Under the pieces are notes generated by a model. It was not told the DNA's origin and ran no database searches. It saw only the letters and a program-made list of their open reading frames with translations. The translations under genes and the position numbers were made by a program. A stretch of 64,000 nt of DNA from Deferribacter desulfuricans SSM1 (GTDB lineage Bacteria > Chrysiogenota > Deferribacteres > Deferribacterales > Deferribacteraceae), in the NCBI RefSeq assembly GCF_000010985.1, contig NC_013939.1, positions 1,765,501 to 1,829,500 of the forward strand, given 5' to 3'. This document shows positions 38,900 to 48,341 of this stretch, piece by piece. Numbering within the stretch: the first letter of the stretch is position 1; each line of letters begins with the position of its first letter.

Positions 38900-39160
38900 A
38901 TGAACAGAGAAGAACTTTTAGAATTAAGGAAAGAGATAACAATTATAGAAGATTTTCAAGAAGAACTTGGATCAGATGAAAAGAAAGCTTTAAGTGAGAT
39001 GAAATTAAAATTTGATAAAAATTTTGAATTACTCAGTGACGATGACAAAAAGTGGCTTAATACTGAATATTTCAGATGGATTGAGTTATATTTAAACGAA
39101 CTTTCATGTAAAGCACATGGTTGCTCTGGCTGCTCTGGTGGCTGTGATATCGAGTTCTAA
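38900..39160 (+). CDS. Small Cys-rich C-terminal protein, unknown function
   Basis: An 86-residue protein that I do not recognise. The first ~65 residues are charged and probably helical (EELLELRKEITIIEDFQEE and DDDKKWLNTEYFRWIELYL). The last 17 residues hold a cluster CKAHGCSGCSGGCDIEF with four cysteines and one histidine, a plausible metal-binding tail. A good ribosome-binding site (AGGAG, 6 nt) and its own promoter-like sequence support a real gene. No transmembrane segment or signal peptide. It lies between mazG and a repeat copy. Confidence 0.7.
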   Translation: MNREELLELRKEITIIEDFQEELGSDEKKALSEMKLKFDKNFELLSDDDKKWLNTEYFRWIELYLNELSCKAHGCSGCSGGCDIEF

Positions 39161-39187: not shown

Positions 39188-39262
39188 AGATTGTTTCGCT
39201 GCCGCTCGCAAAGACATCATTTTAGGATCATTGCGTGGCAATGTAAGTTGTCGAAGCAATCT
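39188..39262. repeat. Dispersed palindromic repeat, copy 2 (diverged)
   Basis: Core palindrome AGATTGTTTCG...CTCGCAAAGAC...TCATTGCGTGG...CGAAGCAATCT, with several changes from the other copies. Lies between the convergent Cys-rich gene and the cyclotransferase gene. No clear outer inverted ends. Confidence 0.75.
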
Positions 39263-39320: not shown

Positions 39321-39824
39321 TTAGTGTTTATTGATTATAAATTCTAAAATCATAAAAAGGTTTATCAGCAACAAAACCGTAAAAATAATCTTTCTTTTAT
39401 ATTTGATAAAAAATGGTCTTGATTTATTATATTCCTCCCAACCCACACTGCTAATATTTTTACACATAAGCTTTATTATTGGAATAAAAAATTTATGTGC
39501 TACAAAAGCATGTGCATATAAATACCCATTTTCAGTTTTAACTTTTATTATTTTTTCAGTAAAATATGTTAAAGCTGTCTCTGTCCCTTCATATCTCCTG
39601 ATTTCATTTAATGTTTTTTCACTAATTTTATATATTTCACCACTAATTTTATTCTCACTATTATCTAAAATAGCTACAGGGTAACCAGAATTAGATAAAT
39701 ATAAACTACCCTGTATATCCCCATTTGCAACAAATTCTGCATTACTCATAAACTTATTAAACCCATCATACCCCTTCATCAACGTACCATAAACAAAAAC
39801 TTTGTGATAATTTTCTTTACCCAT
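39321..39824 (-). CDS. Gamma-glutamylcyclotransferase-like protein with C-terminal membrane anchor
   Basis: A 167-residue protein of the GGCT/AIG2-like fold, whose members cleave gamma-glutamyl bonds with release of 5-oxoproline. VFVYGTLMKGYDG near the start is the substrate-loop signature, and GEIYKISEKTLNEIRRYEG holds the probable catalytic Glu. The C-terminal ~22 residues (KIIFTVLLLINLFMILEFII) form a membrane helix, unusual for this family. The ATG at 39822-39824 overlaps the stop of the upstream amidoligase-like gene by 8 nt; a TTG nine codons further up is less likely. The two are translationally coupled. Confidence 0.72.
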   Translation of the reverse strand: MGKENYHKVFVYGTLMKGYDGFNKFMSNAEFVANGDIQGSLYLSNSGYPVAILDNSENKISGEIYKISEKTLNEIRRYEGTETALTYFTEKIIKVKTENGYLYAHAFVAHKFFIPIIKLMCKNISSVGWEEYNKSRPFFIKYKRKIIFTVLLLINLFMILEFIINKH

Positions 39825-41121
39825 TTTTAATAAACTCGCTATTTTTCTCAAACATCTCTTTTATTTTCAAAATAATACCCTCTTTATAATGAGTTGGTAG
39901 AGATACCTCTAAATCTAAGCCTTTTTTTACCTTTTCCAAGTACAAATTTAAATTTATATCTGCTATATCTGGATTTTCACCCCATTTTATTATTTCATTA
40001 TTAAAAGGCAGTATTTCATCAAATCTATACATATTTTTATACGCAATCATAAGATTTATTGCCATTTCATATAAGTTCTTTTTAGCAAATTCTCTTGACA
40101 GTCGCATATGCGTAAATTCAACTGTGTTAACATATTTTGAATTGTTTTTCCTCTTTCTCAATGCAACAATATCTTTCATATTTTTTTCAAGCATTCTTGT
40201 TTCGACAATTTTATCATCTATCTTTTTAAAGTCACCTGTACAAATCAGAAGAAACTTAATCCCATTTTTATCTATAAAAGGCAATTTTTTAAAATCATTG
40301 TTTGATTCCAATGAAACATGCAAGCTGTGAGGTCTAACTGGTGTAAACTTTACAGATTCATTGATAAGCCAAGATGCAAGTTGAGGTGAGTTAGTAAGAG
40401 GGTTAGAACCTTGTAATACTGAATCATGTTTAGTAAAAGTATATTCTAAAAATCCACCTTTTCTAACAAATTGTTTAAGTGGCATTTCTGCATCGATATA
40501 AGCTCCAAATCTCCACATATATTTCATAAGATGATAATAGTGATATTTTGAAAAATTTAATAAAACATCTTCATTGTGATCAACAAAAAGTTTTCCAGCT
40601 TTATGGCCTATATTTGAAAACTCTAACTCAATGCCTAAAGGGGTATTGCTTTGATAAAAGTTAACAGTTAAATCTTCAAAATTATATTTTTTAAAAAAAT
40701 TATTTACTTTTTCATAAGCAATACTAATTAATTCTTTAAGAAAAATATCTCTTTGCAAATTTATCTTAAAAAATGATCGATGATTGTTGTATACTTTTAA
40801 GGCTAAAAATGTGGCAACTGAGAATTTTGAATACTTATCATCATATATACACATCTTTCTATATAAAATTCTTTCAAATCTTCTTGCTAACAGATTGATT
40901 ACAAAGATATTATACAAGATTCTTATATACCTTAAAGACCAGTATTCTCTCCTAATATATCTATGATTAAAAAAAAACTCTATTTCTTTATCGCAGATTC
41001 TTTTAATTTTTTTCAGACCAATTTTATTTTTAATATAGATGTAATAATTATGGCCACATAAGAGATAATAGAATATTGTTTTATTTTCCATCACAATAAT
41101 ATAATCTTTAAATTTAATCAT
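39817..41121 (-). CDS. Putative amidoligase (glutamine-synthetase/GCS-like fold)
   Basis: A 434-residue protein. The C-terminal two thirds shows the motif order of the amidoligase_2 group: G163-IELEF with E165/E167, GGFLEYTF with E226, a strand with two histidines (HSLHVSLE, H265/H268) and VEFTHMRL with E335 and R340. Such residues hold Mg-ATP and a carboxylate substrate in the glutamine synthetase/glutamate-cysteine ligase fold. The first ~150 residues are basic and helical and match nothing I know. It is coupled to a cyclotransferase, a partnership reported for this ligase class. Substrate unknown; the assignment is by motif, not search. Confidence 0.6.
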   Translation of the reverse strand: MIKFKDYIIVMENKTIFYYLLCGHNYYIYIKNKIGLKKIKRICDKEIEFFFNHRYIRREYWSLRYIRILYNIFVINLLARRFERILYRKMCIYDDKYSKFSVATFLALKVYNNHRSFFKINLQRDIFLKELISIAYEKVNNFFKKYNFEDLTVNFYQSNTPLGIELEFSNIGHKAGKLFVDHNEDVLLNFSKYHYYHLMKYMWRFGAYIDAEMPLKQFVRKGGFLEYTFTKHDSVLQGSNPLTNSPQLASWLINESVKFTPVRPHSLHVSLESNNDFKKLPFIDKNGIKFLLICTGDFKKIDDKIVETRMLEKNMKDIVALRKRKNNSKYVNTVEFTHMRLSREFAKKNLYEMAINLMIAYKNMYRFDEILPFNNEIIKWGENPDIADINLNLYLEKVKKGLDLEVSLPTHYKEGIILKIKEMFEKNSEFIKNG

Positions 41122-41201: not shown

Positions 41202-41273
41202 AGATTGCTTCGTCGCTTTTGCTCCTCGCAATGACCAAAAATTGCTGTCATTGCGAACGAAGTGAAGCAATCT
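41202..41273. repeat. Dispersed palindromic repeat, copy 3
   Basis: Core AGATTGCTTCGTCGC...CCTCGCAATGAC...GTCATTGCGAAC...GAAGCAATCT. The right outer end CACTGTGCAACACC (41292-41305) is present; the left outer end is not recognisable. Lies between the divergent amidoligase gene and murI. Confidence 0.78.
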
Positions 41274-42150: not shown

Positions 42151-43749
42151 TTAATCTAAATTAAGTTTATATATATATAATTTAGAATCAGCTTTACTCA
42201 AAAAAGTTGCTGGCTCATGATACTCTAATATATAAAGATAATAAAACCCATCTTTTCTCATAATGTAATAATCTGAGATGTTACTACCAAGATTATTTGT
42301 AGTCCATAATTCCGTAAGTAAATCACCATTTAATTTATTGACAGTAATAGCCTTATCTATTGATTCATTAAAAAACTGGATTGCACCTAATCCGCTAAGA
42401 ACTTTACCAACCCAAATTCTACCTTTTCTATCAACAAATATTCTATCATTTAAATATATTCTACTTTTCAGTTCTGCTATTCTTTCATCATCTTCTTTTG
42501 GATTTTTCACTTCCTCTTTCACATGTCTTTTCATCTGAAAATAAAATCCTGACCTGCCATAATTATCACTACTTTTAAATATTCTATTTCCATTAATATC
42601 ATATATTTCTAACTCAGACTTTTTATTTATTCTAATAATTTCTTCAAGTTTATCATTATTAACATCACCATAACCAAAACCATAAATTGAATAACCATCC
42701 GTTTCATCAAGACTTTTATCAATGATATAATCACCTCTATAATTAAGCTTCCTGATTTTGCCTATAAATTCACCTGTTCTTGTCAATCTCTGTACAAATA
42801 TATATTTTCTTCCATTTACTAACACCATTCTCGTTATATAAGGAAAATTACTTTTAACTAATTCAAGTTTATTATCTCTATATTCATAAATAAATGTTTT
42901 TATACCATTACCGCTGTCATTTGTCGTAATAAATAATTCATCTAACCCATTCCCATTTACATCTGCACAATCCAAATTGATTATATTATTAAACTTTTCA
43001 CCCAAAGAAACTTTTTTGTTAAAATCTTCATTATTAAACTCAAAAAAATCCACATATTTATTACTAGCTAAAATATAATAACTTTTATCTTTTGTAATTT
43101 TACAATATGTAATGAATTTATAACCTTTATCACCCAATTCGATTTTAGTGATCTTATTCTTTTCTTTTTTAGCTAATTTTACATTTGTGACATATCGTTG
43201 CCAGACTATTTCATCATTGTTATAAACAGTTATTAATTTGCCATATTTATTGTCTTTTTTTACTTCTATTTTAAAGGTTGAATTGTTATCTATTAAGATA
43301 CGATTATCTTTCAACATGTTGATAATCTTTCTATTATCTTTTAAATCACTTTCAAAATTAATATTAACTTTATCAGGTAAAACAACCTTGCATATATCAC
43401 CAGATTTCAACTTTGATGATAATTTATTTATTTCAGCAACACTATAGTTATCATTAACAAAACCGATCGTAGCTTCACCTATCTTCTTCTTTGTTTCACC
43501 TAAAACCTCTCCCGTAATTGGATTTATTATTTTTTCACCAATGTGGTATATAATGCATTTTTGACCAGGCAAAATTTCTGATTTGCTGCCTTTATCTAAA
43601 ATAATTTTGTTATCATAACTATATATGATTTCAGCATTTTTACTTTTGATTAAATCATCCAAATAATCATTTATTTCAAGTGCCATACATTCAACAGATA
43701 ACAAAGAAAAAATAAAAATTGATAAAAGTAAAAATAGAATTTTCTTCAT
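42151..43749 (-). CDS. Secreted FG-GAP/VCBS-repeat protein
   Basis: A 532-residue exported protein. Residues 1-23 form a signal peptide (MKKILFLLLSIFIFSLL, cleavage near CMA-LE). The N-terminal domain (about 36-125) has DNKIILDKGSKSEILPGQK, a small beta-domain also seen in FlgT-like envelope proteins. The rest has calcium-loop-like FG-GAP motifs: DVNGNGLDEL (263-272) and DVNNDKLEEI (362-371), the mark of a beta-propeller. The upstream gene encodes a protein of the same layout, 11 nt away. Function unknown; a periplasmic or surface scaffold is plausible. Confidence 0.7.
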   Translation of the reverse strand: MKKILFLLLSIFIFSLLSVECMALEINDYLDDLIKSKNAEIIYSYDNKIILDKGSKSEILPGQKCIIYHIGEKIINPITGEVLGETKKKIGEATIGFVNDNYSVAEINKLSSKLKSGDICKVVLPDKVNINFESDLKDNRKIINMLKDNRILIDNNSTFKIEVKKDNKYGKLITVYNNDEIVWQRYVTNVKLAKKEKNKITKIELGDKGYKFITYCKITKDKSYYILASNKYVDFFEFNNEDFNKKVSLGEKFNNIINLDCADVNGNGLDELFITTNDSGNGIKTFIYEYRDNKLELVKSNFPYITRMVLVNGRKYIFVQRLTRTGEFIGKIRKLNYRGDYIIDKSLDETDGYSIYGFGYGDVNNDKLEEIIRINKKSELEIYDINGNRIFKSSDNYGRSGFYFQMKRHVKEEVKNPKEDDERIAELKSRIYLNDRIFVDRKGRIWVGKVLSGLGAIQFFNESIDKAITVNKLNGDLLTELWTTNNLGSNISDYYIMRKDGFYYLYILEYHEPATFLSKADSKLYIYKLNLD

Positions 43750-43760
43750 TGGAACCTCAT

Positions 43761-45371
43761 TTATTCTAACTCCATTATGATCAAATGGCTTGATTCTTTT
43801 TTAAATATTCCACTTACACTCTTCTTTAAAATCACTAATTTATTTATATTGCCATCTATATAGTCAACATCCACAATCTGTGGATCAACTCGTCCGGAAC
43901 TCCATTTTTTGACAACATGACTACCATCAAATCTATATAAAATAACTTCAGAATTTTTATAAACATCAAGTCTTGGAATATTTGGAAATTTTTTATAATT
44001 TTTAATGGCAACAAAATTGCCATTATCGTAGTTTAACCTTGGGTATACATAGTATCTAAATTTTAAATATTTAAAAAAATCATCGTTATCTTTATATCCA
44101 AAATCGTCTTTTTCTTTAGCATTTTTATTCAACATTATGTATTGCAATCCACTATTATAAGAAATGGAGCTTTGATATACTGTATTGTTATCAATTAATA
44201 TATTAACTTTACCATTTTTATCAAAATATAAAATATCGATAATATTGTTATTATTTATATAACCAAAAGATGTGTTCATTATATTGATATCACTTTTTAT
44301 AGGTGTAACATATTCATCACCACCTAAATTACTAAGAGATACAAATTTATAGATTTTATTGTCAAATTTTTCACTTACAACCTTCTGATACAACAATATT
44401 TTTTCATTGTTGTGATATGTTGTTCTAAAAAGATAAGGAATATTATTTTTTTCTAAAACTAATTTATCTTTTTTAAATTTGTATATCTTAGTGCTTACTT
44501 TTAGCTTATTATTTAAACAATTTATTATTAAATTATCAATATTATCGTTATTTATATCAAACGATTCGACTGAAACTATATCACCATCAATTTTAACTTC
44601 ATCTATTTTTGTAAATTTTTTATTATTTTCTAATTCATACAAATCAACAAAATGCTTAGTTGCTAATGCATAATAATACTTATCTTTGTATTTTAAGACA
44701 GAAACGGAATAAAACCCTTCTTTAAAATCCAAATTGAGATTTACATAAGCTTTCTTAATAGGTATATCGAATAAGTAATCATTTAAATCAACATTTAATA
44801 TTCCTATTTTATCACCATTTTTATCTCTTATCTTAATGTTTGCTATATTGTTATTTCTGCTTCCTTCAATAATTAAATTAGGGTTTTTATCATCAATCAC
44901 AAAATTAAAATCATTGACCAGTTTATTTTTATAGTATGCAAAAAGTTTATTTAACTCCTTATCATAACTCAAAAAAGATAACTTTACTTTGACATAAGGT
45001 TTTACTAAATCACCATTTTCAATATTCTTATATTTTTTTTCAATTAAAATTATTGCAGAATTACTATTAGATTCAATAACCTTGCCAATACCAACTCGAA
45101 TAATTAAATCTCCGATTTTACCAAGAGAATCGCCTTTTTTGTATATTAAAACCTTTCGCCCAATAAAATATCCGTTTTTAAACCCTTTATTTATTTTAAC
45201 TTTATCATTTTGTATTAAATCAATTTTTGCTTCAGTTGTTATTGAATAAGATAAAATTTGTTTAATAAATCCATCGTTATTAAAGTTATTGGGTTCTATA
45301 TTTGCGAATGAAAAAGCGTAACAACTAAACAAATAAAATAAACTTAGAAAAACTAAGAGTTTTTTTTTCAC
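43761..45371 (-). CDS. Secreted FG-GAP/VCBS-repeat protein, paralogue-like
   Basis: A 536-residue exported protein of the same architecture as its downstream neighbour: signal peptide (KKKLLVFLSLFYLFSCYAFS, cleavage near SFA-NI), N-terminal beta-domain (NDKVKINKGFKNGYFIGRKV), then propeller-like repeats (DINNDNIDNLI, YINNNNIIDILYF, DYIDGNINKLVIL). The GTG at 45369-45371, 4 nt after GGAGG, is the start; the open frame runs 12 codons further into a terminator stem and is not coding there. It is very Asn/Lys-rich. Similarity of the two proteins is judged from layout only. Confidence 0.7.
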   Translation of the reverse strand: MKKKLLVFLSLFYLFSCYAFSFANIEPNNFNNDGFIKQILSYSITTEAKIDLIQNDKVKINKGFKNGYFIGRKVLIYKKGDSLGKIGDLIIRVGIGKVIESNSNSAIILIEKKYKNIENGDLVKPYVKVKLSFLSYDKELNKLFAYYKNKLVNDFNFVIDDKNPNLIIEGSRNNNIANIKIRDKNGDKIGILNVDLNDYLFDIPIKKAYVNLNLDFKEGFYSVSVLKYKDKYYYALATKHFVDLYELENNKKFTKIDEVKIDGDIVSVESFDINNDNIDNLIINCLNNKLKVSTKIYKFKKDKLVLEKNNIPYLFRTTYHNNEKILLYQKVVSEKFDNKIYKFVSLSNLGGDEYVTPIKSDINIMNTSFGYINNNNIIDILYFDKNGKVNILIDNNTVYQSSISYNSGLQYIMLNKNAKEKDDFGYKDNDDFFKYLKFRYYVYPRLNYDNGNFVAIKNYKKFPNIPRLDVYKNSEVILYRFDGSHVVKKWSSGRVDPQIVDVDYIDGNINKLVILKKSVSGIFKKESSHLIIMELE

Positions 45372-45392
45372 ATAACCTCCGTAATTATACAT

Positions 45393-45422
45393 AAAAAAGG
45401 GGGACAAACGCCCCCCTTTTTT
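45393..45422 (-). terminator. Intrinsic terminator after the porin gene
   Basis: A GGGGG/CCCCC stem with a 7-nt loop, flanked by A6 and T6 tracts that extend the pairing. It lies 27 nt downstream of the porin stop, so the abundant porin message would end here and the secreted pair would be weakly read-through or separately started. Confidence 0.85.
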
Positions 45423-48270: not shown

Positions 48271-48341
48271 AGATTGCTTCGGAGCCAAAGCTCCTCGCAA
48301 TGACCAAAAATCTGTCATTGCGAGCGTTGGCGAAGCAATCT
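48271..48341. repeat. Dispersed palindromic repeat, copy 4
   Basis: Core AGATTGCTTCGGAGC...CTCGCAATGAC...GTCATTGCGAGC...CGAAGCAATCT, with partial outer arms (GTCGCACAAAATTT at the left, AAATTGAGCAAC at the right). Lies between convergent flagellin and helicase genes, where it could also serve as a bidirectional terminator. Confidence 0.8.

Follow-up and report, generated by a model that had tools for sequence, protein, structure and literature searches.

The minus-strand gene pair at 39.3-41.1 kb of the window, which is the whole 64,000-nucleotide stretch of Deferribacter desulfuricans SSM1 DNA analyzed here, probably encodes the coupled maker and breaker of a γ-glutamyl (or closely similar) amide. 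The putative maker is a ligase-like protein and the putative breaker is a cyclotransferase of the γ-glutamylamine cyclotransferase (GGACT) family. The two genes are paired, their homologs are fused into a single chain elsewhere, and both the GGACT catalytic residues and the ligase motifs are conserved. That both enzymes act on one and the same bond is our conjecture, and what the amine might be is likewise conjectural.

Coordinates and conservation of the gene pair

Two open reading frames, 39321-39851 and 39817-41121, lie on the minus strand as originally predicted. The predicted 8-nt overlap of the ligase stop with the GGACT start also holds when the ATG at 39824 is used, which gives a GGACT of 167 residues. 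The alternative start, a TTG at 39851, finds no support among the relatives. The ligase had been assigned 434 residues and is corrected to 424, because the family alignment puts its start at M11 (41091), the start in all 10 relatives. The two proteins are as follows.

39817..41091, minus strand: ligase-like protein, 424 residues, with a helical N-terminal domain and a predicted GS/GCS-type amidoligase core (frame open to 41121; based on family start M11, orthologs in the class and a model with pTM 0.90; no Pfam family)
39321..39824, minus strand: GGACT-family γ-glutamyl(amine) cyclotransferase, 167 residues (PF06094 match, as in 11 of 11 partners)

The ligase is present in 11 of the 48 genomes of the class, and the ten relatives share 37-53% identity with the window protein. 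GGACT is the next gene downstream on the same strand in all 11 ligase genomes, with gaps of -8, 0, 0, 9, 9, -8, 25, 10, -8, and -11 nt in the ten measurable cases. The eleventh ligase (genome G020) has a C-terminus frameshifted with respect to the family (L021:7000-7260), which is either real or a sequencing error. Across the 11 genomes, the pair retains a mean identity of about 50% / 40%, so its existence is not due to chance. The gene contexts around it number about eight, as judged by eye and, for the window, by HMM scan. For example, the pair is flanked by MazG- and racemase-family genes in the window, by a ddl/fts-like cluster in a congener, and, in another genus, by genes resembling transporter and groESL genes. 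Hence, the two genes were kept together while their surroundings changed. The divergence of the ligase correlates with that of GGACT (Spearman 0.73, with 2 of 2000 permutations as high), a correlation to which shared vertical descent contributes.

GGACT orthologs lacking a ligase partner were found in three genomes of a sister genus. In the two genomes read, the ligase-less GGACT stands beside bioB- and phoH-like genes by eye (L091:4412-4795 and L092:4770-5225). In G020, a relative of this genus, the pair lies close to these bioB/phoH genes as well, and the arrangement suggests loss or gain of the ligase at a fixed bioB/phoH locus.

The assembly searched comprises 2,542,933 bases in two contigs. 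A promoter scan was near chance level. Scanning the genome contigs with a single-sequence ligase pattern returned nothing, and scanning with the ligase alignment returned close relatives only. The glutamate racemase-family neighbor was considered as a partner and rejected, since no such gene was recognized by eye near the other pairs. Repeat copies on both sides had been listed as a feature of the pair. They belong to a palindromic dispersed repeat of the GATTGCTTCG...CTCGCAATGAC type, located in the window at 41203-41273, 39190-39262 (by eye), and 48272-48304. The genome contains 32 matches to one half-site and none to the reversed control pattern. The repeat is thus a genome-wide dispersed element unrelated to the pair, and its dispersal also led us to reject it as a mobile-element signature. 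Elsewhere in the window, 38900-39160 encodes an 86-residue protein with a Cys/Gly-rich C-terminus (CKAHGCSGCSGGCDIEF) and no Pfam match. The region 42151-45407 encodes two adjacent look-alike predicted secreted proteins of 532 and 548 residues, which adjoin an outer-membrane barrel-like gene; one of them has a weak, sub-threshold match to the FG-GAP repeat.

The ligase-like protein and its relation to Amidoligase_2

The ligase has no match in Pfam, NCBIfam, PADLOC, PHROGs, or PDB sequences, hits with E of 0.05 or above being noise. PDB sequence profile searches with the ligase gave nothing, and a defense-system reading of the pair finds no PADLOC match. The conserved residues are nevertheless arranged as GxExE, W...D, E, H, and E...R, which is the order of Amidoligase_2 (PF12224) at approximately the same spacing. 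The domain and motifs are listed below.

40657..41091, minus strand: N-terminal all-helical domain, about 145 residues, basic (helices at residues 3-135 in the model)
40621..40635, minus strand: G-x-E-x-E (GIELE), predicted to bind metal (G153, E155, and E157 invariant in 27 members)
40492..40515, minus strand: W-R-x-G-x-x-x-D (W193, G196, and D200 invariant)
40444..40458, minus strand: GGFLE (G213, F214, and E216 invariant; E216 aligned with PF12224 E143)
40318..40332, minus strand: P-H-S-L-H (S256 invariant, P254 and H258 in at least 90% of 27 members; H258 motif aligned with G-x-H-V of PF12224)
40102..40125, minus strand: TVEF-x3-R (E325 and R330 both invariant; E325 aligned with PF12224 E264)

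Aside from these residues, P231, G286, E297, and R299 are invariant in the 27 ligases, and T233 is nearly invariant, as are P254 and H258. Of the motif set originally proposed, the family retains G-x-E-x-E and, in PHSLH, the second His. It does not retain the first His of H-x2-H (PFSLH in the sister class) or the His of E-x2-H-x-R (EFSNMR); the latter motif is conserved as E-x4-R. The N-terminal region, with a pI of 9.7 measured on the 434-residue frame, had been regarded as a new basic extension of about 150 residues. It is not peculiar to the window protein. All 27 family members can be aligned across residues 3-135, which are helical and include the invariant Y55, and therefore the "extension" is a constant domain.

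The ligase model built from 27 diverse sequences has a mean pLDDT of 86.9 and a pTM of 0.90. In Foldseek searches, the top match of the first ligase model in BFVD is the Amidoligase_2 protein of Arthrobacter phage Salgado (E 4.2e-3, prob 0.95), and the top match of both ligase models in PDB is a glutamine synthetase (5dm3; E 0.10 and 0.037). All structural matches are weak, with E above 0.001 and TM-scores of around 0.2, and such low scores make them a pointer and no proof. We then compared ligase profiles by hhalign, using 17 genuine Amidoligase_2 proteins as the reference because an earlier five-sequence set was too thin. The score is 24.1, compared with a mean of 13.4 (sd 2.1, max 19.3) for 99 column shuffles and 14.8 for the reversed profile. 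The probability assigned by hhalign itself is low (1.7-4%), and the ExE block, in which GIELE is aligned with GVEVE of Amidoligase_2, is alone in aligning confidently. On the low-threshold path, for which no motifs were imposed, GxExE falls on its counterpart, as do W, D, E, H, and the last E; the W and D of the ligase align there with W125/D130 of the Salgado amidoligase. Counted from the second Glu of ExE, the spacing to W, D, E, H, and E is 36, 7, 16, 42, and 67 in the ligase and 35, 5, 13, 36, and 85 in the Salgado protein.

It had been proposed to check the ligase against PF12224. None of the 11 orthologs passes the threshold or gives a match with E up to 10; accordingly, membership in PF12224 was rejected, and the ligase is a divergent cousin of Amidoligase_2 instead of a member. 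No PF12224 protein was found in the window genome, a weak negative as the controls gave no signal. The PF12224 search of 241 genomes found such proteins in six genomes, and in G049 and G050 they lie at loci other than those of the ligase family.

The predicted GS/GCS fold survives the refutation proposed for it, in that the structure model and the profile comparison both point to GS/GCS-type amidoligases, and we consider this assignment likely. Could the protein instead lie outside this fold, resembling amidoligases by chance? The lack of a significant sequence match to known families and the weak structure scores would fit such a reading. Against it stand five acidic/Trp/His/Arg motifs that hardly vary, if at all, and follow the order and approximate spacing of Amidoligase_2, two structure libraries that independently put a GS/GCS-type enzyme first, and a ligase profile score above all 99 shuffles, which together make a chance likeness highly improbable. 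By inference, the ligase would perform ATP-dependent ligation. It represents an amidoligase family undescribed in the databases searched; the 2009 comparative-genomics survey of amidoligases may mention it.

The cyclotransferase partner and single-chain fusions

The identity of the partner as a GGCT/AIG2-like cyclotransferase is confirmed. The window protein matches PF06094 with E 2.3e-16 and 60.9 bits, compared with a gathering cutoff of 22.8, and 11 of 11 partners match at E <= 0.001. Its features are given below.

39780..39791, minus strand: YGTL substrate-site motif (Y, G, and L invariant and T in at least 90% among the 11 pairs)
39588..39590, minus strand: predicted catalytic Glu (YEG), invariant in the 11 pairs and in the same column in the fusions
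39333..39389, minus strand: predicted C-terminal membrane helix (hydropathy 2.78 over 19 residues)

The catalytic site of mammalian GGACT includes Tyr7-Gly8-Thr9-Leu10, Glu82, and Tyr88, among others (PMC2954230; for Glu82 also PMC7022552). The fusion profile aligns the Glu of YEG with Glu82 of human GGACT (3jub). Both the pairs and the fusions described below conserve YGTL, this Glu, and the Tyr after it in their GGACT, so the partner is likely an active cyclotransferase. The C-terminal membrane helix, which had been noted as new, is indeed predicted in the window protein. It is a lineage trait: eight of the 11 Deferribacterales partners have it clearly (hydropathy of 1.6 or more over 19 residues), one is a borderline case, and two lack it.

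A search with a profile of the 11 ligases added three genomes from a different class of the same phylum, each with one homolog (E 4e-35 to 6e-26). In all three of these sister-class genomes, the sole GGACT domain found is a C-terminal fusion on a methyltransferase-like domain, and in one of the three the fused gene lies tail-to-tail with the ligase gene.

L062:5957-7186, L089:4601-5770, and L090:4343-5545: methyltransferase-like-GGACT proteins of the three sister-class genomes

A wider search of 385 genomes gave three more ligase homologs (E 3e-51 to 1e-41). These are single proteins of 608-635 residues, with GGACT at the N-terminus and the ligase at the C-terminus; PF06094 is matched with E 1e-20 and 2e-16 in two of them. 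In the phyla carrying the fusion, two phyla other than that of Deferribacter, ligase homologs are present in 14 of 82 and 8 of 44 genomes searched (22 in total). All 19 homologs with a readable N-terminus are GGACT-ligase fusions, the remaining three comprising one cut by a contig end and two not retrieved. PF06094 is matched by all 18 fusion N-termini scanned (E <= 0.001). The operon has the ligase first and GGACT second, and the fusion has GGACT first and the ligase second. Simple read-through of the operon therefore does not account for the fusion. Upstream of the fusion, two genomes that belong to one phylum have what looks by eye like a gene for the same adenine phosphoribosyltransferase-type protein (L088:7798-8313 and L109:477-992).

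The co-occurrence of the two homologs, put forward in the original prediction, is thus without exception where it can be checked, up to fusion in other phyla. Functional coupling of the ligase and GGACT is strongly supported by this co-occurrence together with the single-chain fusions in two other phyla. No ligase relatives were detected in viral contigs or, by tblastn, in phage records, and no fusion relatives were found in plasmids; a phage or plasmid origin of the family is therefore without support.

The coupling is asymmetric, as the ligase was never found without GGACT and GGACT does occur without the ligase. Such asymmetry is expected of a repair partner. The ligase might make some other amide, and GGACT would then clear an erroneous γ-glutamyl by-product without reversing the main product. 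The data fit damage control of this kind about as well as they fit making and breaking of one amide. The 1:1 stoichiometry imposed by fusion, however, exceeds the normal need for repair, and we regard this explanation as unlikely.

Comparison with known systems and the proposed reaction

Amidoligase plus GGCT is an established phage combination. It occurs in the RIO-1/phiEco32-type cassette, which is hypothesized to modify peptidoglycan (PMC5498523), in prophages (PMC11318856), and in Arthrobacter cluster AL phages (PMC5513430). We confirmed the adjacent Salgado genes 97 and 98 as PF06094 and PF12224, respectively, and found a GGACT gene beside Amidoligase_2 in Geobacillus phage GR1. In the bacterial genome G230, two canonical Amidoligase_2 genes adjoin a YGTL-bearing frame, identified by motif match only. 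The phage pairs (Salgado 97/98 and GR1) share with the Deferribacter pair the motif order and the layout of GGACT beside the ligase. Different from the phage Amidoligase_2 proteins, the ligase described here has no PF12224 match at any threshold applied, one His in place of HxH, and E-x4-R in place of E-x-R; it has its own helical N-terminal domain, resides in bacterial genomes, and is found in fusions with an N-terminal GGACT. The peptidoglycan modification cassette (RIO-1, phiEco32, and CW02; PMC5498523) likewise has an amidoligase and a GGCT in common with the pair, but it adds an ATP-grasp protein, a glutamine amidotransferase, and a second ligase, whereas the Deferribacter pair consists of two genes only. 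Neither an ATP-grasp nor a glutamine amidotransferase gene was recognized near the pair by eye in the 11 genomes, with an HMM scan in the window only.

By analogy with this cassette, the pair may edit the cell envelope, acting on a peptidoglycan stem peptide or on an aminolipid or glycan of the inner membrane. This would be a substrate-level version of the make-and-break reading and is compatible with it. The membrane helix on GGACT in most Deferribacterales is consistent with such a site of action, as are the glutamate racemase-family gene adjoining the pair in the window and the ddl/fts-like cluster in the congener (by eye). Yet no counterpart of the cassette's ATP-grasp or amidotransferase was recognized beside the pairs, neighbors are not conserved, and the racemase and ddl/fts contexts are each found in a single genome. 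An envelope substrate is thus, in our estimate, rather unlikely.

The glutamine synthetase family, represented by 5dm3, provides the top though weak PDB match of the ligase, and ATP-dependent amide synthesis is presumably shared. The ligase differs from this family in having no PF00120 match and a TM-score of only about 0.2. The likeness nonetheless allows another substrate-level version of make-and-break, in which the ligase, in a PuuA-like manner, would reversibly γ-glutamylate a soluble amine such as a polyamine and GGACT would return the amine. That the best PDB neighbor is a GS-family protein agrees with this small-amine metabolism, as does a polyamine-type ABC transporter operon adjoining the pair in one genus (by eye), and characterized GGACT acts on γ-glutamylamines (PMC7022552). 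The transporter neighbor is, however, limited to that genus, and the membrane anchor on most partners would be unexpected. PxpA (PF03746), a subunit of the prokaryotic 5-oxoprolinase, is absent in the window genome and in 10 of the 11 pair-carrying genomes, which makes large-scale recycling of 5-oxoproline via PxpA unlikely and speaks against small-amine metabolism as well. A soluble amine thus appears somewhat doubtful as the substrate. A metabolic route through PxpA was considered on its own and is unsupported for the same reason, the check having covered PxpA among the 5-oxoprolinases.

Regarding the partner, the Deferribacter protein keeps the equivalents of YGTL, Glu82, and Tyr88 of the GGACT/AIG2-like family (PF06094; human 3jub/3juc). 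Compared with human GGACT, a C-terminal membrane helix is added in most Deferribacterales, and fusion to a ligase or methyltransferase-like domain occurs elsewhere. In butirosin biosynthesis, BtrJ puts a γ-glutamyl group on an amine and BtrG, a GGACT-family enzyme, later removes it; BtrJ is an ATP-grasp ligase. The pair shares this theme of adding and removing a γ-glutamyl group, but no antibiotic gene cluster was seen beside it. New with respect to the sources searched are the ligase family, which has no database model; the helical domain at its N-terminus; its three architectures; and its distribution, which is bacterial and apparently non-phage.

In the make-and-break reading that we favor, the ligase would use ATP to activate a γ-carboxylate, belonging to glutamate or to a glutamyl-like group, by converting it into an acyl phosphate and would join it to an amine. 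GGACT would remove the glutamyl group through intramolecular attack by the glutamyl α-amine, releasing the free amine and 5-oxoproline. The amine would thereby carry a reversible mask or tag, located near the membrane in most Deferribacterales. Tentatively, we propose that an undescribed amidoligase family may form one functional unit or chain with its own undoing enzyme, that is, a self-resetting γ-glutamyl mask, which would be tethered to the membrane in most Deferribacterales and would take the form of one bifunctional enzyme in two other phyla.

A ligase family that no searched library annotates thereby gains a predicted reaction and a predicted active site, and the phage theme of amidoligase with GGCT is extended to a bacterial, apparently non-phage setting. 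The ligase and its expected reversing enzyme are kept together in several phyla, from operon to fusion, which argues that making and breaking are coupled in one place. This opens the biochemical question of whether the same bond is written and erased by one polypeptide, and on which amine.
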